Positions 14,005-53,570 of a stretch of DNA of 64,000 bases are shown here, piece by piece. Source of the stretch: Cenococcum geophilum 1.58 (Eukaryota > Ascomycota > Dothideomycetes > Gloniales > Gloniaceae); the NCBI GenBank assembly GCA_001692895.1, contig KV748202.1, positions 1,674,001 through 1,738,000 on the forward strand, read 5' to 3'. Position numbers and translations under genes: made by a program. The stretch's first letter is position 1. Every line of letters starts with the position of its first letter. The notes below the pieces were generated by a model. It was not told the origin of the DNA. It worked only from the letters and a program-made list of their open reading frames with translations, and did not search any database.

Positions 14005-14380
14005 GAAGTGCTTTAAGAGGCGGAGAATAAATACTATAGGGATAGCAGAATATAGCAGAATTTTGCAGATAGCAACCTAGCAGAAGTTAGCAGAACTTAT
14101 TAACCTGGCAGAATTTGGCAGAATTTAGTAACCTAATAGAAGTTAGCAGAATTTTAGCAACCTAATAAAATTTAGCAGAGTTTTAGCAACCTAACAGAAT
14201 TTAGTAGAGTTTTGGCAACCTAATAAAATTTAGCAGAATCTCGGCAACCTAGCAGAATCTAATAACCTAATAAAAGTTAGCAGAACTTTGGCAACCTAGC
14301 AGAATTTAATAAAATTTAGTAACCTAGTAGAATTTAGTAAAGGTTAATATCCTAATAGAACTTAATAAAACTTAGCAAGG
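14005..14380 (+). repeat. LINE 3' tail: degenerate TAGCAGAATTT / AACCTAATAGAA repeats
   Basis: After the LINE stop codon the sequence is an irregular array of short units such as GTTAGCAGAA, TTTGGCAGAATTTAG and AACCTAATAGA, about 15-30 nt apart. This fits a repetitive 3' UTR. Similar units recur near 15,740-15,780 and, inverted, around 23,448-23,470. Confidence 0.55.
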
Positions 14381-16506: not shown

Positions 16507-16702
16507 TATTACGGCACTGACCTAACGCATACTGTTTTATACTGTCTCGTACTATCTTATACTATTTCCTACTATTAGCTAGCCTACTACTAGCGCCTTA
16601 GCGGCTGGCCCTACTATTTGTATACAATACCCCCTTTTACCTTCTTCTCCTCTTTATACCATAACGTAGTTATTTAGTCTACTTTATTACAGCACCGTAA
16701 CA
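16507..16702 (+). repeat. 5' LTR (196 bp)
   Basis: It starts TATTACGGCACTGACC and ends CCGTAACA. It is the better-preserved terminus of the pair and differs from the 3' LTR almost only by transitions. Confidence 0.85.
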
Positions 16703-16999
16703 GTTTATAGTATCCCTAATTACGCCCTATTACAACCTTTATTTTTTCCTAGTCTATTATTTCTATTTTCCCAGCGTAATTGCAACCTAGCGCAATTAAT
16801 AATACTATACTATAAGTCCTAGATAACCCCAGTACAGTTATAAACAATCTTAGTACTATAGCCAGCCTTATAGACCTTAATTGCCTTATATAGATCCCTT
16901 AAAATAGGCAACTATAATATAGATAATACCCCATCGGCGAATATACGCGAAGCACTCGCCTGCCTTTTTAATACCTCCTATACCCACATTGCCTAGGCA

Positions 17000-18200
17000 A
17001 TTAGGAGTAGCCCAGAGTACCTTAAAAACCTTAATATAGCAGGAACCTTCTAGCACCTCTTTATATATATAACTTTTCTAACTAGTATTAAGAGTAGTCT
17101 TTAAGCCGTTTATAATAAAGGCCAAACTATAAGGTCCTAACTTAAAGAAGCTCAGCATAAAATTAACTCCCTTAAGACGCTTAAACTACGTATATAATAA
17201 TACGAATAGTAAGCCTTTATAAATACTTAGACTATACAAAGTCTAAGCCTTTAGATTACTATACTTACCCAGACTATTACCGATAAGAATACCGCTACTA
17301 GATCTCCTTTTTTAACTAAGCCCTATAGAAAAAAGTGTAAAGTAAAAAGATTTAACCCTATTTAATAGCAAGGGATCACTAACTAAAAAGTAAGAAATTT
17401 TTAAAATATAGGAAATAAAGATTTAAGGCGTTTTCCGGAGGAATATAAAGTGCTTTAAGACCCTAATGGGCGAAGTCCTCTATATATTAGATATGCTAAT
17501 AGATAAAGCTTATAACTATATTAAGCATGGCCTTAATATGCTACGCATATACCTAAATAACTTAAGTAAATAGACCTTCTCTAACTAAGAGTCTATATTT
17601 ATGTATATAAGGAAGTACTATAAGACTATAGATATAACCTAAGCAGCTAAAAATAAGCTAGATACCTTAAGCTAAGGTAAGCGTAACTACTAGCCCTAGA
17701 AAGTAGAGCTTAATAAGTTAATAATTAAAGTAAATAAGACTAAGGAACAAAAAGTAGATCTACTTAAGAAGAATATTTCCTCTAAAATAAAGGACCTAGC
17801 CCTTACCCTTAGCCGTAAGATTAGTAATACTAACTATAAAGGCTAAAGTAAGTAGATAAATATATTTACTTATAACCTTTAGAACTATACCTACTATATT
17901 AAGCTAAATACCGCTAAGCTAAGTACCGCTAGCGGCTATTAACCTATATTACCGTAGAATAACCTAATAAACCTTAACGCCGTTAAGTTTAGTAGTAGTA
18001 GTAATAGTCTCCCTAATAATGTTTAAAGATATTATATGGATAATAGACTTTATATAGCGTGTAGTTAACCTAGCTACTAGAAAAATGCTTATAACCTTTA
18101 AAAGAACCTAAATCCCCTTCTAATACTACCGCGTTAACCTCTTTCTAGCCGCGGCAGATTCTTTAACAAAGGGGATAGTAATTAAGGCGGTAACTGTAGA
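17000..18200 (+). pseudogene. gag region of the 16,507 gypsy element
   Basis: Between the 5' LTR and the pol region, TAG-interrupted frames rich in Lys, Asn and Tyr occur where Gag is expected (for example around 17,430-17,660). No zinc knuckle could be read with confidence. The call rests on position in the element more than on motifs. Confidence 0.45.
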
Positions 18201-19679
18201 TAAGGACGTAGGTTTAGATATAGAAACCTACCCCTATAATTTCTCTCCCTAATATAGCCTTAGCTAATAGTCTCGTACGTAAACTATAAATAAGTACTTT
18301 ATACTACTACTAATTATAAGACCGGTTATATTATTAGTAAAGTACCCTTTAGTATATATACACCGTTAAAGACCAACACGTTAAAATATACTAGCTAAGA
18401 CCATAGCTACTAGCCAAGCCCTATAATTTAGCTATTAAAAGGCTAACCCTTAGACTAAGTTGCCTTTAAGGGTTAGAACTATANAGGGAGGAGGATAAAA
18501 GGATTAGATCTATACTACTAGATTAGTTAGACCTTATTTTAAGCTAGCTACTATTTAATTTTAGAATAGTAAATAGTAATAGGAATACTATCCTTATTTA
18601 AATCTACCTCTCCTTACCGCGTAACCTACTCCTATAAGTTCTTATTAAAATAGTAAGCCTTATTAACACTAGTAGTATAGCACTAGTGTTTATAAATAAA
18701 GACTTAATTATAAAAAAGCACAATATTATAATAAAAAGACTTCTAGTTTTAAAACCACTCCGCCTTACTAATAGACTCCCATCTAGGTTTATTACCCACT
18801 ACTTTATAGTAATAATAATAATTAGCTACTATATAGAATCTATACTCTTCTATATTATAGAATTATTACCCTCTATACTAGTAATTCTTAGAATGCCCTA
18901 GCTTAAAAAGCATAACCTAAGGGCAGACTTCCCCGCCCTAGAGCTTAAGTTTAACTCCGATTACTATGCCTATAACCATCTCCTATAGCACATTCCTAAC
19001 TATAACTAAGTAGTACCACGCAGACGTATTACATAGCTAACACTTAGATACCGTCAGCTAATAGTAAAAGAGGTGCCTAATACTAGTAAGCTAATATACG
19101 TAGTAAATTAAGTAGAGATTCTAGAAGACTAGACTACCGCTTTATCCCTTAAAAAATAAATACCGCTAAAACCACAAGTCCCCTATATATACTCGCTTAA
19201 CCTAAGTTAACTAATAAAACACCTAACCCTAAGTTATTTGCTATACGTATATATAACCACACGTATAATAGCTAAGGGCGTTATAGCTAAGACTAAAACT
19301 AGAGTAATTAAGACCTCCCTTTTATAACGCCTAACCTTACACCTATCTCCCGCGCGTACTATATAGGGCCACCGCCTTATTTCCGCCCCCCTAGGCTAAC
19401 TAAGCTATACTAGCCTAGCTATAGCACTAGAGAACTAAACACACCCTAACATAGACGATATTAGATGCACTTATACCATTAATTTCACCTAGTTCTATAA
19501 ATAAAAAAATGTAAAGGTAATAAGGATTTATATAGCGGAGCTAGTAAAACTAGTTAAATAAAAAGAGTATTAATAGCTGCTTAAGGAGCTGCCTATAGGC
19601 CTAATAGAAGTACTAAACCTATTAAAAAGGTCTTTCCGCTAGCTAGTAAAAGGTAATTATATAATAAATAAAGCCCGTA

Positions 19680-22600
19680 AAGCGCTACCCCTTTATTTTT
19701 ATAACTTCTTTAAGATAAACCTAAAAATAAAGTCTGAGTCTCTATGCCGAAAGATAGTTAATACTAATATTAAGAAATTTTTAAAAGGCAAACTAGGATT
19801 AACCCGTAAAGATATTTTATAATACTTATTAAAAGAGTTTCGCGAATATATTAAATACTTCCTCTCTAAAAATATAGATAAGCTACCCCCTTACTAACTA
19901 TAGGACTATTAAATTAAGATTATACCTAAAAAGTAGGCCCCGTATTATAAAAATAAACCACTTTTACCTACTAAACTTAGTTATATAAAGAAGTGGATTA
20001 ATAAGATGCTAGATAAGGGTTTTATCCGCGAATTAACCTTACCAGTTACTGCACTACTTCTCCTTACTACAAAACCTAGTGGCGGTATATAAATTTACTA
20101 TAACTACTAAGGCCTAAATATAGTTACTATTAAGAATTAGTATCTATTACTATTAGTCCGTAAAATACTTAATGCACTCTATAGTGCTAAGTACTTTACT
20201 AAGCTTAATATAATTACTACGTTTAACTAAATCCGGATTACGGAAGGCTATAAATAGCTTATAGCATTTATTACCCGGTTTAGGCTCTATAAAATATTAG
20301 TTATACTATTTAGTCTTTATAACGCATCCGCTATATTTTAAAACTATATTAACTATATTCTATATAACGCCCTTAATAACTACTACACTACGTATCTTAA
20401 TAATGTCCTTATCTTTTTAAAAATATACGTTAAGTATATAAAATATATAAATAAAATTATCTAGAGACTTAGTAATGCTAGACTCCAGATTAATATTAAT
20501 AAGTCTAAGTTTTATGCTACTAAAATAAAATACCTTAGCTTAATTATCTTAACTAATAGCATAACTATAGACCCTAAGAAGGTATAGGCCTTATAGAAAT
20601 AGAAGGACCTAACGTTAGTTAAGGAACTATAGCAATTTCTTAACTTTACAAACTTCTATTAACGATTTATTTAAGGCTACTTTAAGGTAGTTAAGCCTAT
20701 AACTAGGCTACTAAAGAAGAGTATTAGCTAGTTATAGGGCCCTAACTAAATATAGGCGTTCTAGACCCTAAAAATAGCGTTTATTATAGTACCGGTCTTA
20801 GCGTATTACGACTATATAAAGAAGACTATAGTAGAGATAGACGCCTTAAACTAGGCTTTAGGTAGAATGCTCTATTAAGCCAATAAAAGTAATAAGCTTA
20901 AGCTAGTCGCATTCTTCTTTACTAAGCACTTAGCCCCTAAATATAACTATAAAATATATAATAAGGAGCTCCTAGCAATTATTAAGGCACTAAAAGAATA
21001 GTGCCCTAAACTATAAGGAACTAAGTAGCCGTTTAAAATTATTACGGACTATAAAAACCTCTAGACCTTTATAATAATAAAATAATTAAACTAGCGCTAA
21101 GTCCGCTAGGCTAAGTTTCCTTCCTAATTTAACTTTATTATTACCTATAGGCTTAGTACTAAAGCTATAATCCTAGACGCTCTTAGCCACCTCCTAGGCG
21201 TTATACCTGCTAATACTAATAACAAATATCTATAATACCAAGACCGCGTTATCTTACTACTAAAGAAAGTCGACCCTATTATCCTAAAAGAGCTACTAAG
21301 CGAATCCCAAGACCAGAATATTAAAGACTTTATTGTAGTAATAGACCCAGAGCCTAAGAAAAAACCCTTAAGGAGCTTATTAAGAATGCCTATATAGAAA
21401 ATAAACTCGCTAAGAATATATTAGCTACGCTACGCGAATAGAAAGACTATAAAGCACGCCGTTAGCCTAAGTAGATTAGGAAGCTACTCCGCTATAATAA
21501 ATCTAAATATTTAATTATTAACAGCCTAATCTACTATAGGAATTAAGTATTTGTCCCTAATTACCTAAACTCTAACTAGAAGTTATATACTATATATATA
21601 GTTTAGGCCCTATAAGTTACCTAGGCCGCGTTAAGACACTAAACCTCCTTAATTAAATATATTAGTGGCTAAGTATTTTATAGTTTATAGCTACTTTTAT
21701 AAGAAACTGCGCTCTTTACTTCCGTATAAAGACCCTATACTTAGTACCACCTAGTTTCCTAAAACTACTAAAACTACTAGTCCGCCTATAAACTAATATC
21801 TCTATTAACTACGTTGTTAACCTACCTAAGTGCCTTTATAACGGTAAAACATATAAACATATTTTTATTATTGTTAACCACCTAATAAAGATAAGACGCT
21901 TTATTCCTATTACTAGCCTAAATACTAAAAAGCTTATTAAAGTATTTATCTATACTATCTATAAGTTACACAGCGCTTTAAATACTATTATTTCTAATAG
22001 AGGCTCTTTATTTATTTTTAACTTCTAGCATTACCTAAACTAGCGCCTAAAGGTAACCCTAAGCCCTAGCTCCGTATAGCACCCTAAAATAAATAGTTAA
22101 ACTAAGATTATTAACGTAGTAATAAATAAGTACCTACGCGCCTTTATAAGCTTCACCTAATATAACTAGGTAGATTAGCTCCCCCTTACTAGGTTTACTA
22201 TAAATAACTAGGTTAATAAAACCACGAGAATCTTACCGTTTTTTACCAACTATAGCTATAACCTATATCTAGGTATTAAACCAGCAGGCCCCTAGCTATT
22301 AGCCCTATCTATATATATAAAGAAGGAGTACTTATAAACTATTACTATTACTAACCGCTTTAAGCGCATTCTAACCTAGCTTAAAGCCCTAGCTTATATC
22401 TCCTAGCGATGCTATAAAGATAACGCTAATATAAAACAATATAAGGGTATAATATTTAAAAGGGATAATATAGTTATAGTTAGCCTTAAAAATATAAAGA
22501 CTAACTAGCTTAAGAGGAAGTAGAATAATAACTAGGATAGACCCTAGCCCGTCCTAGCTGCCTATAGAGGAGTAGTTATAGTTAACCTCCTAAACTATAT

Positions 22601-22920
22601 CTGTATTAATAAGTCTTTCTATACTTTAAAAGTCCGCCTTTAGTTCCCTAAAGAGATCTTTAGTTAAGTATATATTAATAAAGAGGAACGTTATAATGTT
22701 ATAGGTAAGATAGCTAAAAGGGATAATAACGGTAATATCACGGATAAGTAGGAATTTAAAAAAATCCTTAATATATATAATAAATAAATAGACGAGCACA
22801 GCTTAATATATTATATTAAGTAAAAGTATTATAATAAGGAAACCTAAGAACCCAAAAAATCCCTAAAAGGGTACGAGTATATACTACTAAAGTTTTATAT
22901 ATAATACCTTAAGAAGCTAG
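19680..22920 (+). pseudogene. gypsy pol relic: RT, RNase H, integrase, chromodomain
   Basis: The reverse transcriptase starts near 19,990 with MLDKGFIRELTLP and TKPSGGI. The catalytic YLDD box is now YLNN near 20,395 (Asp-to-Asn by G-to-A). RNase H follows, with IVEIDALN-ALGRML, FFTKHLAPKYNYKIYNKELLAI (20,830-21,000) and ITYRLSTKAIILDALS. The integrase core spans about 21,640-22,400 and has ISNRGSLFIFNF (expected SDRG) and a PFFTNYSYNLYLGI end. A chromodomain-like tail reaches about 22,920. Trp and Gln codons have become TAG throughout. Loss of both catalytic aspartates shows the enzyme is dead. Confidence 0.8.
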
Positions 22921-23248
22921 GACCCCTAGACTAGGCACGAGATAAGGAAAAGTTATACTAAAACTATAGCCGACCATAAAGATAATTTATAGTGGCTAAG
23001 ATTTTATAGAACTTTAACCGCTAGTTAAAGTTATCTAATTAGTTAGTTTTTTGCTAAGAAGCGCTATATAGTAGCGGTATAGAGTTCTGCTAACTTTATT
23101 TGTTAAACTAACTAATTAGGATTTTCTATACCTAGTATAGAAAATCGCTATTAGCTTAGTTAAGAGTAGTAAGTAAAAGTAATATCTTTATAGTAAAAAC
23201 AAGTTATTTATTTAGTTTAGGGACTAAACCTTTTAGGAAGGGAAGTAT

Positions 23249-23444
23249 TATTACTGCACTAACCTAACGCATACTGTTTTATACTGTCTTAGACTATCTT
23301 ATACTATTTTCTACTATTAGCTGGCCTACTACTAGCGCCTTAGCGGCTGGCCCTACTATTTATATACGATACCCCCTTTTACCTTCTTCTCCTCTTTATA
23401 CCACAACGTAGTTATTTAGTCTACTTTATTACAGCACTATAATA
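23249..23444 (+). repeat. 3' LTR (196 bp)
   Basis: It has the same length as the 5' LTR; its end has decayed to CACTATAATA. It is followed by the target duplication CTGAG. Confidence 0.85.
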
Positions 23445-23683
23445 CTGAGTTCTGCTAAATTTTACTAGTACTATAATATATAGCTTTCTTTATCTAGTTC
23501 TAGTCCTATATTTAGTAAGCACCATTTATAAAAATAAAGCTTTAATTAATATTATATAAAAACTCTAATTAAATTAGAAAGCTTTCTGCCCTTAAATAGT
23601 GGTACTAAAAGTAATAGCGTATATAATAGCTACGACTATTACTACTAGCTATTTGTTAGGTAAAACCTAAGTAGATAGTTATA

Positions 23684-23974
23684 TCCCTTAGCCCATCAAT
23701 TTTCGTCTAACGGTTATCGATAAGAACTAGCCAATTAATTGTGCTGAATTTAACTCCCGCACTAAGGAATAGTTTTATAGTAATTTAATATATACGCCCA
23801 ATTTTGGGAGTTAAGTCGCTCGATATAAGGTTAATAGCACTTATCCTTCTTACAGAACGGTATTTTGCATTGTAGTAGGTAACTAATTAATGGAATCTAT
23901 GGGTGTACGCGTTGTTTTAAAACTAGTGTTCGCGTACAGACCACTTGCTTGTTGGGCGCTAACAGGTTAAGGGA
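23684..23974. mobile_element. 291-bp MITE of the piggyBac-like TATCCCTTAACCC family
   Basis: The left end is TCCCTTAGCCCATC, with CGGTTATCGATAAGAACTAGCCAAT about 25 nt inside. The right end is CAGGTTAAGGGA. It is flanked by TA on both sides (23,682-23,683 and 23,975-23,976). Left-end internal sequence through AGTCGCTCGATATAAGG matches 12,180-12,220 next to the piggyBac transposase, so this is probably an internally deleted, non-autonomous derivative. If the TTAA inside the end is the true duplication (piggyBac rule), the outer TATCCC is a shared target flank. Confidence 0.65.
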
Positions 23975-23976
23975 TA

Positions 23977-25041
23977 GCTATAAGGTATAGGCGACCTAGG
24001 GGTAACCTAAGGGTGACTTACCTATAAGGTATATGCGCTATACATACTTAGGGAAACCCCTTCCTTACCTTATATACAGACTCCTCCTTTTCCCTTAAGG
24101 ATTTGTCTATCTATATAATATATCCTATTATTCTATTAATTGGACTCCCTATCTATATCTTTACCTTATACTATTACTATTCTATTAATTTTAGTAATAA
24201 GTAATAAACTAAAATAATTCTTTTTAAAAGCGCGTTATATAGTCTTAAAATAGTAGAATATTAAAAATAATAGCAATAAACTAAGCTCTTACTTAAGGTA
24301 ATTTAACTTATTTTTTATATAAAGCTTTTAATTTAATAATATCTATACGTTAATATTAGCTTTATATAATCTTTCTAGAGAATATATATATATATATTAT
24401 TATTGCTACTATTAATAAGGTAAAGTTAAAGTAAAGAGTTAATGTAATCTATAAGCTAGTGGCCTATATAAACAAGTAGCCTACTCTACTAAACACGTGA
24501 TCGTAAAATAAGGCAATTAATTAACTACAAATAACTGAATTTAATGTAGCTATCTACTAGCTAGTTGCCTGCCGTCTAGAGCACAAACGTGCTATATATT
24601 CTATTGATTTGCATATACTCTACTTATATACTACCCGTTGCGGTCACTCAGCCGCTACCTCTACTACTCCCTCTACTGCCCCCTTCTAGGCGGCTTGTAT
24701 ATAAGATAGCCCTTCTACTCCTAATAAAACATCCCCACTAGCTATATACGTGCGCCTAGTTACCCTCTTTTATTTTTAGCGCTGGTTTTCTATATATAGC
24801 TTTTAATTTTTAGTTGTAAGTAAGATAGAGCTTAATATTACTATTTTATAACCCTTAATAAGCTAAATAAGGGCCTATTCTGTTAGACTTGGTAGGCTAT
24901 ATATATATATAAGGTAGTATTGCTAGGGTGTACGGTAGGGAGCAGGCAAGCCAAGCATAAGTTACATAGGGAGTCGATAGAAGAGGATGATATAGTAAAG
25001 AGTAGGCAATAGCCTTATACGGAGACGAACTGATAGGGGAG
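23977..25041. other. AT-rich repeat block, possible LTR fragment
   Basis: Sequence around 24,000-24,190 (for example CCCTTAAGGATTTGTCT) resembles parts of the LTR at 1,802-2,106, suggesting a related solo LTR without clear ends. The remainder has TA-rich runs near 24,390-24,400 and 24,900. No gene is seen. Confidence 0.4.
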
Positions 25042-25050
25042 GAAGGAGGC
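25042..25050 (+). repeat. Target-site duplication, left copy
   Basis: GAAGGAGGC is identical to 36,721-36,729 just outside the other inverted end. Confidence 0.7.
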
Positions 25051-25559
25051 TTACCTTAGCGAGCTTAGACGCGATTTTTTAGCTAGCATTGGAATAACCT
25101 ACGCCGTCTTCCGAATTGCAAAATCACGTCTGAGAGGGTTTAGCGAGATTTGTTAAAATCCTAAGCAAAATCTATAAAACGGAGATTGCGGATATCTAAT
25201 TTATTTATTTATATAACGCGTTATTATTACTAAAAGTTTATATATTATTTTTAGGACTTAGGGCTTCTAAATGGTATAAATTTTATAATACGGCTATTGC
25301 TTAGTCCTGATATTAATTTTGTTAAAGTTAAAAAATACGTTATTAAAAGCCTAAGCACGTATTATATCTTATTAAATAGTCTACTAATATTAATAAAACT
25401 ATATAGATATGTAGACATCTACTATATAAAGCTATTACAACACCTAAAAGGTGCTATAGTTGGGTCCTTCCTTAAAAATATCCTCCCTTAGCCTAGAGTG
25501 CCTCTACTACTACTAGGCGTTATATCCGTATAAAAAACCCACTATAGCTCTAAAGAAAA

Positions 25560-27565
25560 CCACTAGATGTTAGGGTCGGAAGCCTATAGTTAAATGGGAA
25601 TGCTAGCAGGTCTTACGGAGCTCGTGGGAGCTAGATAATTATATATGGGAGGATCTTACGTCCCTAGTAGAGAGGCAGTTATAGGACGTATAAGACGAGC
25701 TTCTGGCCTTATAGGAGGCAAGCAAGGACGAACAGTTAAGCGCGATAGATAGAGCTATTAATCTTCTATATCTGTATAGCGGACGACTAAGTTAAATTAA
25801 GGTATTAAGACGGGTAATATATAGGCGGAGGGACTTATTCCTAGCGGCGAAGATATTATAGGGTAAGAGTATAATAATGCAGGCGATTCCATTACTTGTT
25901 TAAGCTTCCGTTACTATTATTATATTACCTCTAAATATAATTAGAGAGGAGCAGCTGTTAAAAATACGGGCTATCCTAGGAGCAAATCCCGTATTTATAT
26001 ATGCGGAGGTAATAAAAGCGTATATAGATATCCTAAAACATATTAAGGCGGGTTAGTTTACGCATATTCTAGTATTACTAGAGTTACTATTAAGTAAACG
26101 GTTCCACTATATCCTTACTTAGCCCGCTTTTTACTTATATATTTCCTTAATTATAATTAATAAGTATTATCTAGTTGCTAACTAGAGTAAGAGCTTCCGG
26201 CCCCATTATATATAGCTCTTTAAGGTCCGACTACTGCTTAGTCCAATAGTACCGTGGTTTATATATACTGCAACACTTAATAAGGAGATATATATAAAGG
26301 TAATGAAGCTAGCGGGGTTTTATTAGAGTATGACGGATCTTAAATAAACGGATATTAATTAGCCTGACCTATCTATTATTAGGGGCTATATTAAGAGGAG
26401 GGATAAGAACAATTATAAGGCACTATTCTTTGTTATTAAAGAGGCATTTAAGGAGGCGGTAGTAGAGGAGGATTATATATCCGCGACCCTTAGCTAGATA
26501 TCCGTAGGGTCTAGTAAAATATCCACATTATCTAGCCAAATGCCCGTAGCGCCTAGTAGGATATCCGCTACCTTTATTTATTAATTAGTCGGGCGGATCT
26601 AAAATCTGGTAGGAGGTACTATACAGCTAAAGGGAAGAAAGGTTTTAAGTCCTAAATTAATTCCTAAGATAATTATCTTTCTTTATGCCAAAAATTATAT
26701 CTATAGGTGTATAAACATTATCCATTTGTGGCTTATAACTAAGGGCTATACTATAAAGTAGGCTAAAATAGCAGTATAGAGTTATTATACGATATTATCC
26801 AAATATAATAAGAGTAGGGAGTATTGAAATTTCTATATAGAAGACTTACCTACCCGCATTCTTATTACGTTGGACGCCCTAGCCTATAGTGCAGATATTC
26901 TAAATATTATCCGTTCTATTATATATGGTTATTATCCCAACAAAAGCCTAAATATAATACTGCAGTAATTTGGACGGGCCGCCTAACGTAACAGTATTAC
27001 CGGATATATAATTATCCTTATTAAAGACTAGTATAAAGGTGCTCTTATAAATATTGCACCGCTAAAGCAAAAGTCTCAAAAACCTATAGCCCCTCTATTT
27101 ACTCAACTTGGTTATAACTTTATTGCCGCTAAAATGGCAATATAGGAGGATAGGGCAGCGGATTTCGCCAGTGATCTGGCTTTATTCGTTATAATTAATA
27201 GTAATATTATCTTGCAGGTATCCGCTTAGGAGGAGGAGGATTAAATACTTAATATGAATATAATATTATTAGCCCTACTAATCGAGCATATAGAAAAACA
27301 GAAGAGGGTAAAGACTAATATAGAGAAACGGGCGGTACTTCTAGATATATTATACGAGCTCGTAAATAAAGCTACTAGATATCTACGTAATATTCTACTT
27401 AAGCTATATAAGGAGACAAGTCCGTTATCTAGAGGTCTACGCTGTTACTTTAATTGTAATAATTTATTGCAGGCTTATAAGGAGTATAATATTGTCGCAC
27501 TATATACTAGGAATACTGCGAAGAGTAAGTATTTAAAGGATATATTTGTAAGTGTTAAGAAGTGA
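25560..27565 (+). pseudogene. RecQ-like DNA helicase relic
   Basis: Plus-strand frames with TAG as former Gln/Trp read as a RecQ-family helicase. Walker A remains as GKSIIM near 25,862. Motif Ia is IIILPLNIIREEQ. Motif II (DECH in the family) has become NKYY at 26,159-26,170, each residue change explained by G-to-A or C-to-T. SFRPHY, VPWFIYTATL and DLSIIRGYI follow. The helicase C half starts PKIIIFLYAKN (about 26,660), with ILITLDALAYSADILNIIRSII and LQQFGRAAQRNS (about 26,960). A C-terminal extension with a Cys pair (CYFNCNN) ends at 27,565. Similar RecQ-like genes occur in fungal subtelomeres and repeats; here it is cargo or machinery of the 11.67-kb element. Confidence 0.7.
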
Positions 27566-29049
27566 ATTAAAGGATAGCTTAATATAATATACTAGGATAT
27601 AGTTTAGAGTCTAATTTCTAGTTATATTATATCTAATAATTAAATCTACGTACTTTGTATCTAACCTCCGCTAACTTATAAGGGCCTTAAGCGGATATTG
27701 CCTAAATAGAATTACAGCTTCCTAGGAGATAAAGTGGACGCGCTTATCCGCTTTATTTATAAGGAAGAAACGCGATACTTTAGTACTAGTGTCTTATAAG
27801 CTGCGTTATAATCTAGTAAACGTGTTGCCGTATCTAGAAGCTCGTCACAGACGCCTTTGCTATTAGTGGGTTAATAGGGACCTATTAGTGCATTAACTAT
27901 AAAGAGTGCTAGTCTTAATCAACCGTTATAAACCGAAGTATTACCGCCCTTACAGCTATTATTAGTATCTAGCTCGCAAACTAATATAACCGAGTTTTAA
28001 ATATCTTAGCTTGTATTAACCTAAGACTTATAGGCGAACTGGTCCTAGACTATATATGCCACTCTATTGCAGTCATCTTAACGGCTAGATATTTAATATC
28101 CGTATACTCTGAATATACGGCTGCCTGCTTAAAAATCGTCTAGTGCATATCTATAGAACCCTTAACTTGACCTTCGGCATCCTAATAACTCCCTACAGCG
28201 CCTCCATTGTTCTTAATAGCTTCTTAATATAGCTCCGCACTATTCTCACAATTCTCTACTACCTTAGTTTGTATCTCAGAACCTAGGTATTAGTCCGTGG
28301 TGTAGCCTTTAAGCTCTATAGCAGAAATCCAATAGTATTATTAGCTTGAATATAGGTGGCGCTAGTTTACAGCGTGGTGTTTGATCTCCGTAGCGATCTC
28401 CACAGCAATCTCCGTAGCGATCTCTACGTGCGGTTATTGCGAATCAATATAGCCTTGTTAATAATCCTACTGGCAATAGTCTATTATTGGTAGCAATCTG
28501 CGGTAATCTAGTATTAACAGCGACGGCAAACTGCCGTATTATGGCACCCTCTATAGCAACTTAGTAGCAGAATACTAAAAGGGAATTAGCCTATATAGCG
28601 GGTGTGGACGAATATCTATAGGGTTAGTATAGTGGTTCGGTAGCTTATCTATTAACCTAGGCTTGTCGCTTATAGCGGCTTTTAAATAGTTTGTCTAACT
28701 AATTATATATTAGTGCTTAATAACCGTATACTTCGCCTAGTAGCTTACTAGTACGGTTAGGAAGCTTATCCTAACGCGCAGACTTACGGGCCAATGTATT
28801 AGCCACTATAGAGTTAGCTCCCTTCTAGCCGGTAGAATTAACTAGAGGTAAATCTGGCACTTCCCGCCGCTCTGCTTAAGTAAGAAGTACCACCTCTACT
28901 TGTATAGCTAGTGCTAATACAACTCTAAACCAGTCTCTTTAGCTAATCCTCCCCTTTAGTACTGTACTAGCTAGCAGTATGACCTTAAAAAAGACGCTAA
29001 GACGTCTATTTACTAATATTAATGGTAATATAAGTGTAAATAGGCCGCA
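27566..29049. other. Middle region of the 11.67-kb element, coding content unclear
   Basis: Plus-strand stretches such as the one near 27,760-27,960 (RYNLVNVLPYLEARHR) look protein-like when TAG is read as Gln or Trp, but I cannot assign a family. A short cluster of GTAGCGATCTCC repeats lies at 28,384-28,430. Confidence 0.35.
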
Positions 29050-29465
29050 GCTAAAGCGCCGGATATTAGAGCTTATAGCGTAGCATTAGGTCTTAGCCCT
29101 TAGAGCAATCCGGATATTAAAGCTTATAGCGTAGCATTAAATCTAAATCCTTAGGGCAGCCTAAGTGTTAGAGCTTATAGTGTAGCACTAAGTCTTAACT
29201 TTTGGACGGGCCTAAGGTTTAATATTCGCAATATAGCACTAGATCTCCGATTACGAAAAATTCCAAAGTTTAATATCTATAGTGTAGCACTAGTTCCTAA
29301 GTAGTAGGAAATCCGGAAATTTAGAATTCGCAATATAGTATTAAATCTCCACTCCTAGAAAATCCTAAGGCTTAGGATTTAAGTTATAATACTAGATCTC
29401 CGCTCCTAGGAAACTCTAAGGCTTAGGGTTTATAGGCTAATACTTAATCTCCGCCCTCTAAACTG
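29050..29465 (+). repeat. Degenerate ~50-60-bp tandem array
   Basis: Units share TTAGAGCTTATAGCGTAGCA, then TTA(G/A)(G/A)TCT and a CCTTAGGG-like spacer. About seven or eight increasingly diverged copies run to about 29,465. They lie directly upstream of the first duplicated module and may be a promoter or subterminal repeat. Confidence 0.55.
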
Positions 29466-29636
29466 GGCGTAGCTTAGAATAAGTATATATAAGGTAGTTA
29501 ATGTTTACTAAGGTAAGTCACTATAGCAGCGATTACTTATTAGTAAGCTAATTTAATAAAATCTATAGCGCGGATATTCACCTTTAATTAACCTCCGTAC
29601 CTTTTACCTCATAGCATTGCGTCGTAAACTTTATCA

Positions 29637-31230
29637 TTGTTGTTTTATCTACTATCCATTAGTATACTACTATCTATAATACCTTCTTTTACACCTCTAA
29701 ATACGTCCGACAGCTATTTAGTTAAAGAACTTAATATACGCGACGTTAACGATGAAATAATTAAGGACGCTTTTAAGGACGCCCTTTTTTTTACTAATCC
29801 TTTAGGGTCTTTACCTAAAGAGTAAGCTTTCTAATACTAAATTATGCCTGCAGCTAATATAATTTTAGGAAATACGTACTAAAGCACTCTTTATTAGATC
29901 TAGCAGAGCACCATAATAAGGTTATTGCGAAATCCGCCAGAAATCCGCTTACCTCTTCACTACCTACCTCTTTACCGCCTACTTTTTTACCGCTTGCCTC
30001 TTCGCCGACTACCTTTAAGCCGCTTACCTTCCCACCGCCTACTGCTTCTAAGAAGTTTAATCCTTATCATGCTTCTACTTCTCTTAAGAGGTAGGCTAAT
30101 AAAATTACTACGCAAAATATTTAGTATAAGATAGCCTTTAAATCATATATGTTAGCTATACTCTTTTAGTATTTTATCTACTAATTTACCTCTTATAGTA
30201 ACCTAACAGAAATATTAGAGATTTTAGATAATAATAAAGAGAATAATCTTAATAACGCCGACTTTCCTAAAAGCCCTCCTCTATTCTTTTATAATCTTTA
30301 CAGCCCTTATAAGCTCCGCAGTATATAGACGGCCTAAGCTATAATGTCGGATATTAACATAAACGAGCGCCTTCCTATTTAAGTGCCGTTAGTAAATAAA
30401 TAGTACACCCTAAAAGCTAGTGCTTAGGAGAATATAAAGGAAGCTCGCTAGCGGATATATACCCACGTCCAAAATATTAAGGGTAGCTCTAGTATGCTAC
30501 GCGATCCGCTATATACTCTATATATTAAGCAAGACTATAAATATCGCGTTTATAAGCAGAACTTTAGGCTATATTTTAGAGGTACATGCTTAAGATATCG
30601 CTTAAGTAGTAAGTCGTGTAAAAAGGTATATGCTAATAGTATACTATTATTCTATTAGCTAATACGCATATAGGATAGTTTGCTAAAACTAGAGCCGGTT
30701 ATACCTTAGCATAAAAAACGTATATAATTAGTTTCTGCTAGTAATCTAGCTAGAACGCCTACCAAGAAGGTATAATATCCGCATTTTAATAATACGGATA
30801 TTACTAATATCTATATAACTTTATACCTGCACCATCCCCCCTTTAGAGACCTCCCCTTCCCCTAAGACTCTTACTTATAGTGATATACGCGGCCGTAAGG
30901 GCACCTATTTTGCCGCTGCTTCTCCTACTCTTTTACTAATTCCTAGTACGCCTAGTACTGCTCCTAGTACTACTACCACTCCCGCTAGCATAGAAAATAT
31001 TAGGGTATATTTAGCAATTGCTGTTTCCGCATATGTTAATATAGTTTATAAATAGGTAACTAAGATAGTAAAAGATGTTCGGGCTATAGATCGCTAGTTA
31101 GGTAAGCTTAAAGATTCTCTAAGTAAAATAAAGGATAGGCTTGCGTTTATAAGGCGTAGTATTATAGCACTTATATATAACGCCGGGTTACTAGATATAG
31201 AATTTAAGTAGATGCCGGTTAGTAGTTACT
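29637..31230 (+). pseudogene. Unknown ORF of module copy 1
   Basis: The frame opens with MLFYLLSISILLSIIPSFTP, a hydrophobic start like a signal peptide or membrane anchor, then NIRDVNDEIIKDAF and a stop at 29,823-29,825. A Pro/Ser/Thr-rich stretch follows (29,930-30,070). Next is a conserved block (ERLPIQVPLVNK, CLRYRLSSKSCKKVYANSILLFYQLIR; about 30,360-30,665). A second Thr/Pro-rich linker and a possible coiled coil follow (DVRAIDRQLGKLKDSLSKIKDRLA with the stop read as Gln, about 31,070-31,145). Several frame changes may be introns or damage. No family is recognised. Confidence 0.45.
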
Positions 31231-31364
31231 ACGAGTTAGCTATTACTACGGGTTAACTGTTATTACGGGTTTAGAGTAATAAAATAGTAGCTCTTACCTC
31301 TTTGCTACTATATATATAGGAATTAAGTCTCTACCTTATATTTAATAGATATAATTAATATTAT

Positions 31365-31588
31365 AATATCTATATAANCTAAGATAAAGATATCCGTATA
31401 AGCTAAGATAAAGATATCCATATAAGCTAAGATAAAGATATCCATATAAGCTAAGATAAAGATATCCATATAAGCTAAGATAAAGATATCCATATAAGCT
31501 AAGATAAAGATATCCATATAAGCTAAGATAAAGATATCCATATAAGCTAAGATAAAGATATCCATATAAGCTAAGATAAAGATATTTA
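31365..31588. repeat. 24-bp minisatellite, about nine copies
   Basis: The unit AGCTAAGATAAAGATATCCA plus TATA is repeated head to tail with almost no variation. It marks the end of module copy 1; copy 2 ends with only two to three copies (33,483-33,540). The long antisense open frames here encoding an 8-residue repeat are artefacts of the array. One N (31,379) lies inside. Confidence 0.85.
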
Positions 31589-31605
31589 TATATCCGCACT
31601 GTTGA

Positions 31606-33545
31606 TAATTACTAAGGTAAGTTACTATAGTAGCAATTATTTGTTAGTAAGCTAATTTAATAAAATTAGTAGCGTAGATATTTACCTTTAATTAACCTCT
31701 ATACCTCTTCTTCCTCTACTAACCTTCCACCTTATAGCACCACATCGTAAACTTCATTATTGTTATTTTATCCACTATCCCTTAGCATTCTACTATCTAT
31801 AATGCCTTTATTTACACCTGTAAACGATATTAATGCGAATAATAGTAGCCAGGCAGTTAAGAAACTTAATATACGCGAAATAAACGAGGATATTGTTAAG
31901 CGCGCCATAGCTACTCTTACTAAGCCTTTAGACTTTATTCCTAAAGAGTAAGCTTTTTAATACTAAATTATACCTATAGCTAATATGATTTTAGAAAATA
32001 TGTACCAAAGCGCTCTTTATAGGATTTAGTAGATGACGAAAATATAGATAGAACGAAATCTACTAAAAATTTGCGCATCTTTTCGCTACCTGCCTTTCCG
32101 TTGCCTGCATCTTTACCATAAACTACTTTACCGTCCGCTTCTTTACCGTCTACCTCTCTACTGCCGCCACCTAATGCTTCTAAAAGGAGACTAGACAAGG
32201 CTTATTTATCTTCTTTTCTTAAAAAGTAGGTTAAAAAGGCTACTAATACGAATCTAAAGGCCAAGATAGCTATTAAATCGTATATATTAGTTATACTATT
32301 TTAATATCTTATCTACTAATTTACCTCTTATAGTAACCTAAATATTTATAAGGTTTCTTTAGATAGCGAACCTTTAGATAGCGGCAAAGATAAAGATCTT
32401 AATAACGCCGACTCTTATAATCTTCGCAGCCCTCGTAATCTCCGTAGCCCTTATAATCTTTATAGTACCACAAATATAAATAAGCGCCTTCCTATCCAAG
32501 TGCCGTTAGTAAATAAATGGTATACTCTAAAAACTAGTATTTAGGAGAATATAAAGGAAAGTCGCTAGTGGATATTAACACACGTCTAGAATATTAAGGG
32601 TAGCTTTAGTAAGCTGCGCAACCCGCTATATACTCTATATAAGAAGCATAGCTATAAATATCGCGTTTATAAGAAGAACTCTGGGCCTTATTTTGGGGGT
32701 ACGTGCTTAAGATATTATGTAGGTAGTAGGTTGTGCGGAAAGGTACGTGCTAATAGTATACTGTTATTCTATCAGCTAATACGCGTATAGGAAGGTTTAC
32801 TAAATCTAGAGCCGGTTATACCTTAGGGCAAAAAATATACAAAGTTAGCTTCTGCTAATAGTCTAGCTAAAACGCCTACTAGGAAGGTATAATATCCGCG
32901 TGTTAATAATACGGATATTACTAATATCCACATAGCTTCGTTCTCGCACTATCCCCGCCCGCGCCACTACGCCTCCCCCTACTAAGACCTCCCCCGCTAT
33001 TAAGACTCCTACTTACAGTAGTACGCACGGCCGTAGAGGCACCTACTTTACTACTACTCCTCTAACTCTTTCGCCAATTACTAGCACGCCAGGTACTGCT
33101 ATTACTGCTACCACTTCTGCTAGCACTGGGTCTATTAGGGTATATTTAGCAATCGCTGTTTTTACGCGTGTTAATATAGTTTATAAATAGGTAACTAATA
33201 TAGCGAAAGATGTTTAGGGTATAGATCGCCGGTTTAATAAGTTTAAAGATTCTCTTAGTAAAATGAAGAATGAGCTTGCGTTCCTAAGGCGTGGTGTTAT
33301 TATACTTATACGCAATACTAGGCTACCAGATATTAAATATAAGTAGATATAAGTTAGCTATTGCTACGGGTTGGCTATTATTGCTAGTTTATAATAATAA
33401 AATAGTAGCTTTTACCTTTTTGCTACTATATACGTAGGAATTAAGTCTCTGCCTTATATTTAATAGATATACTTAATTAATATTATAATATCCGTATAAG
33501 CTAAGATAATAATATCCATATAAGCTAAGATAAAGATATTTAAAT
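31606..33545 (+). repeat. Tandem module, copy 2 (~1.9 kb)
   Basis: It starts CTAAGGTAAGTTACTATAGTAGCAATTAT, matching 29,508 with transitions only in this stretch. It ends ATATCCGTATAAGCTAAGATA... at 33,490-33,540 with a short version of the minisatellite. Confidence 0.75.
31760..33360 (+). pseudogene. Unknown ORF of module copy 2
   Basis: This is the paralogue of the copy 1 ORF. It has the hydrophobic start MLFYPLSLSILLSIMPLFTP and NIREINEDIVKRAI, a Pro/Ser/Leu-rich segment near 32,070-32,180 and a second conserved block (KHSYKYRVYKKNSGPYFGG, 32,640-32,700). A final helical region includes KFKDSLSKMKNELAFLRRG (about 33,240-33,295). Conservation of the same blocks in both copies suggests that they once encoded protein. 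No known function. Confidence 0.45.
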
Positions 33546-33899
33546 AAAGAGTCTATTCTAAAGGTTAAGTTTCTGGAGTATAAGGTATTAGTTTTACTCT
33601 ATTTTTATTTAGAAGATTATATATTACAATACTATTTTTAATTCTTATAATATCCGCACAGAGCTATTATATAAAATTAGAATATCTATAGATACTCCGC
33701 TTATATTGGAAGTATATCCGCAATTAAAATAATATATTACTATTACTCTTAGTATTTATTAAGCAACTTATACACCAACTATTATATATATTAGCAGAGG
33801 TATAGGTATAATATTAGGACAATAAACTATATAAATATATTTAGTAGCTTCTCCTAGTACCTCTATATTCTTATTAGCATCACTAAAGCTATATATAAG

Positions 33900-36250
33900 G
33901 GGATTAAATAGCAAACCAGCTGTAGTTAATAGGAAGGTATTAAATGTATTTACGCCGTCCTTTATAAGTTTCTTATATCCACGCTATAGGAGCAAAGAAG
34001 CCTTAAAATCTGCTAAGCGCCGCCTATATTATATAATTAAATCCTTCCTAATCTAATCTGTAAAATAGTGGATATCTAGCGCTAGAGACTTAGTCTTATA
34101 TTCGCTGTTTATACACTCGCTAAATATACGCTTAAAAATATCATAGAGCGCGCTAGTATAACTTATTATAAGAACACTCCACTTAAATAGCTTGTCTATA
34201 CCAAACGCCAAATTCCCACACGTCTAGAGCAACTCCTTAAGTTAAAGATTTAGCAGTTTATTAAGGCGATCCGTCTCAAAGAAGCTATCTAGCCGCCCTT
34301 AGAGGTTAACTAAACTATTAGTAAGAATAGCCCGTTAAAGCACTAGATTATAAGCGCTTGTCCTAACTAGTTGCTATAGGATTAGTATATTATATGTATA
34401 GTTCTTTAATAAGCTTCTAGCAAAGTATAAGCAAAGATAGGGGATTATACGCTTTAGTAGTCCAATATCCATATACTTAATAGCGTATTTTAGAAGCTTA
34501 TAAGTATTAATAACCTACAGAAACCAGATATAATTAAAGAACTCCATATTATAGTTATTAGCGGCGAAGCTTAATATATCTATAGAGGATAACGTCGCTG
34601 CTAGCTAACGTGCGTTAGCAGGTAGCCCCGAATAATTAGACGTGCGCTAATTTGCATCGCGGCATACATCTCCTAAAAAAGCCGCTGTGTGGATATCCTT
34701 AACATGCTCTAGAAATTGCTGCGGAGATAGGTTTTATATATATCGCTCGGCCTCACCATCTGCCTTAATATTACACTTATTATGGATATAAAGTAGGAAT
34801 AACGCAATAACACAAGCGTTAAAGCTTTAGAGGATTAGCTCTTCCATATAATAAAATAGGGCCTTTTCCCTAGGAATATTACGCCGTCTTAGGTGGTTTA
34901 TATAGGTGTAGAGCGCTAAAAACTACTACGCGGCTTGCTTACCCCTATAGAACGTACGCATAATTATATATAGGAAGTTTAATCGTATATGCTATAGCCC
35001 TAGAATAGGCAACACCCACTTATAGCTATCGTACGCACCTTCCGCCTTAACCCGCTCCTCTTTATATAATTAGATAAGCTTTACAGTCTTCTAATCTCCA
35101 TATACTAGGAATAGCCAGTCATTAAAAGCGGTTTCGTAATTATACTGCAGTTGGTCCAGAAAGATATTCTCTATTACGCGATAATTGCTGTTAATAGAAG
35201 CCTTGCTATCTAAAATAGGTCCTAGAGTTATATACTCTGTCTTTCTATAAGGGAGAATATTAACTGCTAGTATACGCGGATATTTAATATCCGCGTTAGA
35301 GTTAAATATACTATTAACCGCAGTAGGATACGCGCATTAGATGGCGTCCGTAATAAAACTTATAGATATCCGCTTCTAGAGGTTATTAAACTTATTCCCA
35401 GCTATATTAACAACCTTATCTAGCTTAAGTTAACGGGTGTTGTTTAATATCAACTGCTTAAGGCCCCCTTTAGGCATATATACTCCGCGTAAGATCTTTC
35501 CTATAGTATGCGAATTAAACTTACTAATCTCGCCAATAACCTAATGTTAAGTCTTTTAGTAATAGTTAAAGTTATTATAGATAATATAGACATTATTATA
35601 AATAGATAGAGACTTAATTAGTTTCTTAAGGGTTATTAGCACTAGAAGTACTAGTAAAATTAATAGAACCTTCCTTAAAACATTTAGCTAGCCTAAGCTT
35701 TTTAGCGTTAAGAGTTATATAACTATTAACCAGACTAAGGCTATATAGGAAAAATAGCATATAGCGCTTTATACCAAGCGCCTAAAGATATAGACTAAGT
35801 AGATAGGCAAAACCGTTTATAGAGTTCTAGGCAAACCCTAGGAGGAATATAAAAGCAACTATAACTATATATCCGCTATACAGATCCTAACTACGTTCCT
35901 CTTTATTTAGTGTGGATATCCCCTTAATAAGCTAAAACAGCAGCGGACCATGCTGCTAAATAAACTTAGCTATATTCTTAAGGTTAATATCCTAAAACTC
36001 TATATCTGGAGTCTATATGTTAAAGGGGCCGCGTTATAATTATAGTTAGTAAAGCTCTTTCCGGATACAGCGGACAGTATAGGTTACTAGCGTTATATAA
36101 ATATTAGCCCTATTAACAAGTTCTTCTTATATTTTCCTATCCTCTAGTAAAGTAATAAGTAGGTCCCCTACTTTCTTCTTCTTCCTATTACCTCTATGCC
36201 CGTTCTCACTTTCTAAGAACTTAAAGACCAGCCTATAAAAAGACCAGCCC
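33900..36250 (-). pseudogene. DUF6589-like protein relic
   Basis: The minus-strand frame, TAG read as Gln/Trp, contains a long protein-like sequence resembling the fungal DUF6589 family of putative transposon proteins. It has GEISKFNSHTIGKILRGVY (about 35,500), PILDSKASINSNYRVIENIFLDQL (about 35,200), FLVYGD-KTVKL (the conserved GDQ-type motif, about 35,100) and GL-HIRLNFLYIIMRTFY (about 34,960-35,010). NNYNMEFFNYIWFL and AILTNSLVNL-GRLDSFFETDRLNKLLN follow (about 34,280-34,570). The assignment is from remembered family features, not a search. It runs opposite to the helicase and reaches toward the right terminus. Confidence 0.55.
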
Positions 36251-36720
36251 TATTAATATAGAAGGTCCCTAATAATATTAACCTTCTTTTGCTTTAATGT
36301 CTTTGTCTAACCGGTAGGTGGAATATCCGCTAGTTGTGGAGAGGGCTAGCGGCGTAGGCGTTTAGCGTTAGTGTTTACTACGTGGCTTAGTGGTACAGAG
36401 GTAGAATTAGAGCCTCTGCGGTAACGAATTCCTCTTAACGTCGCGCGTATATAAGGAGCTGAAGATCTTATAACTTATAGAGTAGGCTTTTCTCTATAAT
36501 TTGGTGTGATTTTTATATTAATAGGTATTGTAGGAGGGTAGATTAATTTTGTTAAAGTTAATAAGGTTTTCTTATATAAACTATGTTTAGGTTTTCCTAT
36601 AAATCTCGCTAAAGTCTCTCAGACTAAGAAAACGATTGCCGTCCTAAATCAGCTTAGCGGACGGTGCGGATATTCCTATATCCGCACAATCGATTTCTTG
36701 GTCTAAGCTCGCTAAGGTAA

Positions 36721-36729
36721 GAAGGAGGC
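36721..36729 (+). repeat. Target-site duplication, right copy
   Basis: GAAGGAGGC matches 25,042-25,050. Confidence 0.7.
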
Positions 36730-36939
36730 TGCAAGCCTAAGGTGCTTATAAGGAGGTGCCAAGGGCTAGCCGAAGGCTAGCCTTGGCGACCCCTAAGAGC
36801 CCCTAGGCGATGCAGCTAAGTAAGGGCTAAAATAACCCTTATAATATGCTATTTAAGATAGCGCTTTAGCAGGTCCGTCTACTTCTATAGCTTAGTAATA
36901 TTATAGGGTGTTTTAGTTACCTGGGATGTATCTAATCAC

Positions 36940-38000
36940 GGACATTAGGGTAATAGTATCTAATATTTAATATATAGCAGTAATAGTACGCGATCTAGAT
37001 CGTATAGAACTAAGCTAGTAGCTATAAATCCTACCTGTATATTATTCTAATATAGTACTACCTACCTAGCCTGCCTGTATATAGGCGGGAATTCGCGTTT
37101 ATTAATATAGTTAATGCCACAGCTTATAATCTATTTAATAAGGCATTTATAGGCCTACTTTAGTACTAAGAAACAGCCTATATCTAGTAGCTGTAGTAAA
37201 TGCAATAAATGCGCTAGTATATAAAGAATAACTATCTAGTAATCTAGGCAGAACTAATCAAATTCGGGTAATACGTGGCTGTTATAGCTATCTAGTACTA
37301 GTAGCCGATGTGCACTAATAATGTGATCCTTTATATGCTTATAGAATACCTATATTAGCTAGGTTAAACTAATCTTATTTATTATCTAGCTATTGTTACT
37401 AATACCAATTAACCAGTTATATGGTATAATATTATTTTTATACTACGTAGCCTAGTATATTACTACCTTAAAAATAATAAGTAGTGGAATTGCGATCCCT
37501 AGGGCATTAATATATTTAATAATTATAATCTATTCTTAATTGCCTAGTTATATAGTTTTAGGCCAGCTAGCCCTATTAGTTCTAGTAACAACTTTTACAG
37601 TTATTATAACATCTATTTAGTAGCCGATTTTATTAAAATTCTAAATATCCTTATCTAGAATCCTATACTATATTTTTATATCTTAAACGCGTTTAAACTA
37701 TACTTAAATAAGTGTAAGATCTTCGTATTTCGCCTGTTAATAGTTATACTTATAATTATATTTGGGTTTTAGATTATTATAGTAGTTAATAAAATTCTAT
37801 ACCTAGTTTTAACTAATAGTAATAGGGTTGGTCTGTCTAGTACATTAAGTAGCGAAAATACTAGCCATCTACTGTATGGTTATAATCTTAGGTAGTATAC
37901 TACGTTAATTTATTAATAGAATCTACTACTTAAGACTCTCTTCTTATATTAGAATAAGACGGCAATTTAAAGCAGTAGAACGGCACTATAGTCTAATACC
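36940..38000 (-). pseudogene. Fot1/pogo-type transposase relic
   Basis: Minus-strand frames with TAG as Trp/Gln read as a pogo-family DDE transposase. The segment equivalent to the NFDETG region is followed by TTVKVVTRTNRASWPKTI, then NREWVTIIKYINALGIAIPLLIIF (about 37,520). Then come the W/LIGISNNSW and HRLLVLDSYNSHVLPEFDQFC region (about 37,280, the second catalytic Asp) and LQLLDIGCFLVLKQAYKCLI (about 37,160). NNIQVGFIATSLVLYDLDRVLL closes it (about 37,000). Terminal repeats were not identified. Many stops; inactive. Confidence 0.7.
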
Positions 38001-42843: not shown

Positions 42844-44376
42844 TCACGGCGAAATCGGCACATTTCCCACAATCGTCCAATCCGTACCGTTATTCAGGAC
42901 TTCTCTCAACGCGCCACCAGCTTGGAAATAACACCTCGTCATGTCCTGGCTAACCTCCAGCGGAAGGTTAAACCATGAGCTTGGTGTTAAACACGTTATT
43001 GATGTGCCGTTGTCCGCGCCTTTGAATGCCGTAAAAGTGGACGGGCCCTTCCAACCTGATGCGTCGTCCTCCCACACGACCTGTATAGTGCTAGCTGTGT
43101 CTTGATAGAGGACGTATTGGTTGAGGTCGCTACTACCATTGCGCGCGGATGAGAACACAGCGATGTTTGCGGCAGAGGGGATGGATCCCGAAAAGGTTCC
43201 AGCTGTGCAGCGCGCAGTTAGCGGGTGCCCTCAAGGAGGTAGGAAACTAAATGAATGACATACCAGTAGCGAATAAACCAGAGGTCGAATTCCGCGAATA
43301 ATCAATTACTTTACCATCATCACGCTGATAAAATACGCCCATCTCGGTGAGGTTTTGCGTCTGCGGTACAATCACCAGCCCGCCATTAGCAGACGCGCTC
43401 ACGTTGACCGGCGCCATAGACCAACATCCAGGCACTGTGCAATCATAGACGATCTCTTGTAGATTATTCGATGAATCCTCCCAAATAATAAACGGCCAAT
43501 ATGTCGTTAATCGCGTTTGAGAGCCAGCAGTTATTGTATTCTGGGTTAAGCTTCCGCTTTTGCCGGTTCTAGTGGTGTTATCCCAATTCCATTCCACGAT
43601 ATGGTCTTGTGGTTCGTTAGCAACACGTCCGATCGAACTCTGGGGTACACTCACTTTGATTATCTAGGTAGAATAATTCTATTTGATAAGTCTGTTATTC
43701 AAGCTATTAGCAAAAGAAAGTGGCTCATATGAAAGGAAGGAATTGTACCGTATCTGTCGCATAGAAGCTATGGTTGAAATTTGTAACAGCCAAAGGACTT
43801 CCAGTTTTGGCCGTGGTAAAGTTTGATGTCTGTGTCCAATTCCCGGTGCCCGATTCATAGGCAGAATATGAGAGGTAGTTGTCATCGTTCTGAAAGTAAA
43901 CACGAATCGAGAAGTTTCCCCCAGTTCTCCAACCAGTAACTGCCAGCGGAGAATTTTCACGAATTCCAATCGGCCTGGAAGTACTCGTAGGTGCTGCTGT
44001 AGGATTGCTTGTTGTTGTGGTTGCAGGTTGTGCGCTGGAGTTGTTGCTGTTATGGTTCAAAGTTGTGCCAAGAACTCCTCCTAGGACAGCGCCTACGATT
44101 ATTAAGACTACTGCAACGACAAGAATCCATAGCCGTCGCCCATGAAGAAAGGAGTTTCGAGGTGCTGGTGGTGCTTGCACCATCTCTTTTTCTGGAGCAT
44201 AGTACGCATACTGCTCTACAACCTGGGGTGATTCATTGTACCGAACATCCACGACCTCTAACCCTTCAGGTGGGACGACTGCCTCCTTATGGGCATCATT
44301 ATCTTTCTAGAGACGCGTAAGCCGAAAGATTATATATTAGGCCCATCAAATAGTAAGGTTCTTTACTTACACTCAT
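42844..44376 (-). CDS. Membrane-anchored fungal fucose-specific lectin (440 aa), four exons
   Basis: The exons are 44,371-44,376 (ATGAGT only), 43,749-44,306, 43,264-43,663 and 42,844-43,202. Introns of 64, 85 and 61 bp have GTAAGT, GTACAA and GTATGT donors and TAG/CAG acceptors. Total 1,323 nt with intact frame. Residues 1-60 are cytosolic, ending HGRR; 61-83 are a transmembrane anchor (LWILVVAVVLIIVGAVLGGV); 84-110 are a Thr/Ser/Pro stalk. The remaining 330 residues match the AAL-type fucose lectin fold, a six-bladed propeller, with repeats such as NLTEMGVFYQRDDGKVIDYS, LQEIVYD and STIQVVWEDD, plus several N-glycosylation sites. Fungal homologues bind fucosylated glycans; this one would display the lectin outside as a type II protein. 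The cell role is unknown. Confidence 0.85.
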
Positions 44377-44993
44377 ATTCCAGGTGTTGGGACAGCTCCC
44401 TTCATGACGCTTCCCGAAAATCGGGCAGCGAGCTTGAGGAGGGGATTTCGTGGAGGGAACCCTCCATTGTATTGCGGACTGTCAGCAATTTGACGTGGTG
44501 TAAGGTTGCGGATCCTAATCGCCAAGCCTCGTGCACTAGTCTTTGATATGCACTGAGTCCCTCGTACCCAATGGGGATGAGCCCGAGGTCATTCAAGGGG
44601 CCTGGTCTGGCGCTGAGCCGGGCAAGGATGGATGTTGGTGGCAGCGGGCGAGCTTGATGCCGTTAAGCTGAATTTCTGTCGTGGGCCGCTGTGGGGCTGG
44701 GAGTCCGCGTTTGAAATTGACGTCTCGTAGGGGTTTTGGATGTGGAATTCTGCCTTGTCAAGTATTATCACAGCTATCATCACAATCACCTGCCAGGGGA
44801 GGGAGAGGTGCAGGAACAAAAGTCCGGTGACCTAAAGCTTGCACGTGCCGAATTCTTTGCGACAGCGGAAATGAATGAGGATTTGTCCGGGCTGATGGTA
44901 AGGTTTGCGTTTTGTGGGGCTGACCCTTGAGCGATTTATTTCTGTACAGGCGAAACAAACGTACATGACTACGAGGGCGCGTAAAGACCATTA
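44377..44993. other. 5' flank of the lectin gene, no other gene supported
   Basis: Short open frames on both strands overlap and have no features. This stretch probably holds the lectin promoter. The piggyBac-family end begins at 44,994. Confidence 0.4.
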
Positions 44994-45075
44994 TCCCTTA
45001 ACCCGTCAAAATTGGTCCTTACGGTATCGATAAGAGCTCACCAATCAAACCGGTTGAATCAAGCAGCCGTTCTCA
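44992..45075 (+). repeat. piggyBac-family terminal repeat, left-facing copy
   Basis: TATCCCTTAACCCGTC (44,992-45,007) is followed by GGTATCGATAAGAGCTCACCAATC (about 45,022-45,045). The same order occurs at 51,573 on the opposite strand and at 23,684. The interior after about 45,075 does not continue into a recognisable element. Confidence 0.6.
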
Positions 45076-53526: not shown

Positions 53527-53570
53527 TAATTACTACCTAGTTATAGTATTAATATAAGAAGTCGAATAAT

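Follow-up and report, generated by a model that had tools for sequence, protein, structure and literature searches.

Kojima 2020 (Mob DNA 11:15) is reportedly the source paper for the AcademH lineage of Academ DNA transposons. AcademH elements are described as helicase-encoding DNA transposons with target-site duplications of 9 or 10 bp, as against 3 or 4 bp in AcademX, and these lengths are related in the same account to the encoded helicase and nuclease (PMC10045372). AcademH is reported to be present in fungi at low copy number (PMC10799480). Other DNA transposons have other characteristic lengths, such as the 8-bp duplications of hAT and Zisupton and the 5, 6 or 7 bp of some hAT elements (PMC12730594). 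RecQ-like genes are also found as repeats in Dothideomycete genomes, including the subtelomeric RecQ helicase repeats of Mycosphaerella graminicola, which are described as telomere-linked (PMC4522978), and the RecQ-like, RIP-affected repeat X26 of Stagonospora nodorum (PMC3017866). The locus examined here shares with these the repetition of a RecQ-like gene in a Dothideomycete genome; the genes and repeats in those accounts are linked to telomeres, whereas the present gene is part of a transposon bounded by terminal inverted repeats.

In the window, by which is meant the whole 64,000-nucleotide stretch of Cenococcum geophilum 1.58 DNA that was analysed, positions 25051–36720 constitute a single transposon, whose inverted ends of 20 bp are perfect and whose target duplication measures 9 bp. 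The left terminal inverted repeat (25051–25070, + strand) starts with TTACC and the right one (36701–36720, − strand) finishes with GGTAA, and the element is flanked by two copies of GAAGGAGGC, the target-site duplication, at 25042–25050 and 36721–36729, the only two places in the window where this sequence occurs. Perfect termini and a perfect direct repeat outside them had both been noticed in an earlier sequence-only reading of this DNA, and both are present. The weaker inverted similarity that it saw over a further ~150 bp is real in one place and is not continuous: it consists of one 24-nt patch, 92% identical between 25128–25151 (+) and 36601–36624 (−), which is situated 78–101 bp from the left end and 97–120 bp from the right end. 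The left patch contains AGCGAG, the core of the terminal repeat, a motif that has one further internal match in the window copy and is altered at some sites in other copies.

The sequence-only reading had suggested searching the same genome with the terminal sequence, and doing so recovered repeated ends, six full-length copies and 9-bp duplications. The left 200 bp and the right 200 bp served as queries against 177,193,698 bases in 162 contigs. The left query gave 361 first-look candidates and the right query 366, unconfirmed as copies; scoring 40 of each yielded 41 match rows per end, among which those for the left end count the window's own row and a weak partial one, and both ends of the element are repeated in the genome. 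Stretches of 10 kb were read at 20 left ends, the right ends of four full-length copies being read separately. They revealed these four full-length copies, 15 elements whose right end falls inside the stretch (spans of 1.3–9.5 kb) and one element, L013, whose right end was not found in its 10 kb. Another copy, C4, was chosen because its ends are 12,033 bp apart, and it was read at its right end and over its first 10 kb, where the helicase and the two modules are followed by the last third of the DUF6589 gene's match to the relative P0001. The five full-length copies beyond that of the window are 11.0–12.1 kb long and colinear with it, at ~82–92% DNA identity per block; in C72, 1,000 bp are missing between helicase and module. 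The order helicase (+), module 1, module 2, DUF6589 (−) is the same in 6/6 full-length copies (C4 being read in part), all with the same ends, which substantiates the proposal of one large transposon with this gene set.

Duplications at the insertion sites were compared in the 24 elements with both ends read. An exact 9-bp duplication flanks 15 of them (14/20 in a first set and one, C33, of four in a second set picked for pairing ends), eight fit a 9- or 10-bp duplication less simply, and C7, with four mismatches at 9 bp, is counted as having no clear duplication. The eight comprise L018 and C4 with one mismatch each, C72 and C18 with two each, L009 with three, L011 with an exact 10-bp duplication (the sole 10-bp case), and C25a and C25b, which fit only with their flanks swapped and then with one mismatch each. 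In the printed flanks, every mismatch of L018, C72, L009, C4, C18 and the C25 pair is a transition. Among full-length copies the duplication is exact in two and has one or two mismatches in the others, in C25a and C25b only after the flank swap. As a control, left and right flanks were paired wrongly, and 4/380 such pairings agree at at least 7/9 bases, two of the four being the C25 swap. The duplicated 9–10 bp are of varied sequence and the insertion sites of the copies are unrelated; what recurs is a pair of fixed ends between 9-bp, once 10-bp, duplications. The 8-bp duplication of hAT and Zisupton does not match the 9 bp seen here.

The element is AT-rich with a RIP-type dinucleotide signature: TpA/ApT is 1.56 in the element vs 0.74 in window 43001–51000, and (CpA+TpG)/(ApC+GpT) is 0.53 vs 1.25 for the same two regions. 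Within window 24000–38000 there is no stop-to-stop frame of at least 120 aa, the copies read carry C-to-T and G-to-A changes, and no intact gene was found among them in this genome. C25a and C25b (L025+L031 and L028+L032) lie inverted to each other on contig C25 at ~235–269 kb. Both are 12,077 bp long, and all 1,084 of their 1,084 differences are C/T or G/A, over-represented at CpA and CpG, with no gaps. Since the two differ by transitions alone, the unit was multiplied and then hit by RIP. The simplest reading is that they are near-identical copies from a recent duplication that were struck separately by RIP; homogenisation by gene conversion is an alternative account of their likeness. Their target duplications are exchanged, each left flank matching the right flank of the other copy with one mismatch, as expected after inversion of the ~10 kb between them through recombination of the inverted copies. 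The family is one of real, formerly mobile DNA transposons, and every copy read has been damaged by RIP.

The similarity of the 15 shorter elements to the window copy covers little more than the ends: ~470 bp at the left end (in two pieces in L011 and L016) and 316–418 alignment columns, or 315–410 bp, at the right end. Among the comparisons listed they have in common an internal region peculiar to them. Because duplications of this same kind flank the derivatives, it was probably one and the same enzyme that mobilised them in trans. Much of the internal region of L012 is a 12-bp minisatellite of 38.8 copies (L012 8478–8934), which is absent from the tandem repeats listed for the window copy. 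In L011 (contig C26, 496931–506930) an insert of ~8 kb interrupts the derivative at element position 244–248, those five element positions being matched on both sides of the insert, and L017 spans a large extra stretch too.

The helicase gene is a RIP-broken remnant on the + strand. Its coordinates, 25502–27631, delimit the part compared between copies, and the gene may extend either way. The window's helicase stretch has no match in Pfam. It is similar to RecQ chains of the PDB (E 5.2e-5), as is a profile of the helicase copies (E 4.5e-4), and the NCBIfam model TIGR01389 (recQ) matches 4/4 of the X-masked copies scanned, with a best E of 8.8e-9 that corresponds to 34 bits, far under the model's curated cut-off of 640. 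In copy C124 a weak Pfam match to Helicase_C (E 0.044) was obtained. These results agree with the earlier call of a RecQ-type helicase on one strand, and the helicase feature of AcademH is present here through the sub-cut-off TIGR01389 matches and the profile match to RecQ chains.

On the opposite strand (−), at 33771–35618, lies the remnant of a DUF6589 gene, the candidate transposase, with an undelimited N-terminal part further upstream. The Pfam match to DUF6589 is strong in the window (E 4.4e-43), as the sequence-only reading had anticipated, and in the part of C124 concerned (E 6.6e-33). Six-frame Pfam scans of C124, which covered all but L019 4803–5000 and 9203–10000 (~1 kb), gave DUF6589 and the weak Helicase_C as the only plausible matches; they also returned an Img2 ribosomal domain at E 0.037. 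An uninterrupted relative, P0001 (573 aa, from a 2,238-base contig), is 67–71% identical to five of the copies, and wider relatives were found in Sclerophora amabilis, Ilyonectria destructans, Geoglossum umbratile and Metarhizium anisopliae, with several DUF6589 proteins each in the first two. Most relatives that cover the region have the motif order YDNF, YGDQKT and ETDR. There are exceptions: the second Asp is missing from P0004 and P0007, the usual third motif from P0004 and P0008, and the stretch of the second motif from P0008 and P0009, and the first acidic motif is degraded in the four element copies shown. To judge from these residues, the acidic motifs may represent a DDE triad. Modelling DUF6589 with AlphaFold gave structures of poor quality (mean pLDDT 43 and 60.5), the lists of similar folds contained no transposase, and searching the PDB with a profile from a shallow alignment returned nothing up to E 10.

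Gene content and the imperfectly kept acidic motifs point to DUF6589 as the mobilising transposase. The sequence-only reading had offered either this protein or that of the duplicated module for the task, and the former choice stands on that same footing. The DUF6589 protein would be a transposase of the DDE type: it would bind the repeats at and just inside the termini, excise the element, make a staggered cut of 9 bp for its insertion and have mobilised the short derivatives in trans. The RecQ-type helicase might work at the element ends or in the repair of gaps after insertion. In Pfam, DUF6589 is a family without an assigned function, and the transposase role is a possible function for it: the suggested job for a domain found here in several filamentous ascomycetes is that of the transposase of a helicase-carrying transposon.

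Taken together, the element is likely to be a RIP-inactivated, formerly autonomous DNA transposon of ~12 kb and of the AcademH type. The likeness to AcademH, as described in the sources cited above, lies in the encoded helicase, the 9- or 10-bp target duplications (15/24 exact at 9 bp and one exact at 10 bp) and the occurrence in fungi. There are two differences. AcademH in fungi is called low-copy (PMC10799480) whereas the family here is numerous, which counts against the assignment, and the element has a tandemly duplicated module of unknown function. The sequence-only reading had spoken of a possibly undescribed class; since helicase-encoding DNA transposons with duplications of these lengths are already in print as AcademH (PMC10045372), this is probably a new AcademH-type family with a duplicated module, a placement made by helicase and duplication length with AcademH known from its descriptions. 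A single genome here shows the complete unit together with its target duplications, derivatives and decay by RIP. The RecQ-like genes in fungal repeats would have a further possible source in AcademH-type elements, if these carry RecQ genes.

The alternative that survives best, though an unlikely one, is that of an undescribed superfamily, in which the DUF6589 transposase has no kinship with the Academ one and the resemblance to AcademH in helicase and duplication length is convergent. DUF6589 would then be the transposase of a separate fungal superfamily that carries along a RecQ-type helicase and a duplicated accessory protein and mobilises many short derivatives in trans, a proposal that we regard as equally doubtful. 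It draws on the status of DUF6589 as a Pfam family without assigned function, on the absence of that name from the literature searched, on sequence and fold searches that linked it to no known transposase, and on the module, for which no relative was found. These negative searches are weak, with shallow alignments and poor models, and two printed features of AcademH fit the element (PMC10045372).

That a Mutator-like element captured a RecQ gene and other host genes is improbable. The link to Mutator-like elements had been drawn in the sequence-only reading from duplication length, its sole basis, and was not borne out. The length is inside the range printed for MuDR/IS256 relatives (4–10 bp), but the gene content is different, and no MULE domain was found by the six-frame Pfam scans of most of C124, in which the frames are RIP-broken. 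Moreover, the same genes are present in all six full-length copies read, which means that they were not captured by one copy.

The duplicated module has just as little claim to encode the mobilising protein in place of DUF6589. Its two copies, of ~2 kb as previously noticed, lie in tandem at 29484–31448 and 31601–33539, both on the inferred + strand, and each is a possible gene of unknown function. They are spaced 2,104–2,135 bp apart and are 71–88% identical in ungapped blocks. A 24-bp minisatellite lies at the end of both, with 9.5 copies at 31366–31592 for the first and ~2.5 copies at 33478–33547 for the second. The module occurs in every full-length copy read and bears weak signs of coding: as protein, its copies are 65% identical over a composite of two frames, and 8/15 gaps between the DNA copies are multiples of three. 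By these signs it is possibly coding, although no reading frame is clearly favoured. No homologue and no transposase-like Pfam match was found for it, leaving the earlier suggestion that it mobilises the element with nothing positive in its favour. An accessory DNA-binding or coiled-coil protein is our guess.

It is scarcely probable that the element is of the Kolobok type with a RecQ helicase, as in KolobokH or a relative. Kolobok target duplications are TTAA, and if that rule holds, the duplications found here, 9–10 bp of varied sequence, contradict this reading. The likeness is that of DNA transposons with a RecQ helicase: KolobokH encodes one and is known only from fungi, and in the rhodophyte Kolobok-1_CCri it is on the complementary strand, as here (PMC9587614). 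In KolobokH proper, however, the helicase is downstream of the transposase domain (PMC9587614), and the present element has DUF6589 as its candidate transposase.

Finally, the idea that unrelated repeats came to lie together by chance in a RIPed region, for which one could point to the abundant AT-rich stretches in the window and which the sequence-only reading had named as the outcome that would undo its proposal, is refuted, because six full-length copies share gene set, order and ends at unrelated sites.

Two other parts of the window, 14001–25000 and 53001–62000, contain more AT-rich stretches with ~29–35% GC that look like other RIPed repeats. Between the element and the second of these, at 47568–49031 on the − strand, there is a 487-aa open frame with a cysteine pattern, which we take to be like that of a Zn2Cys6 fungal transcription factor.
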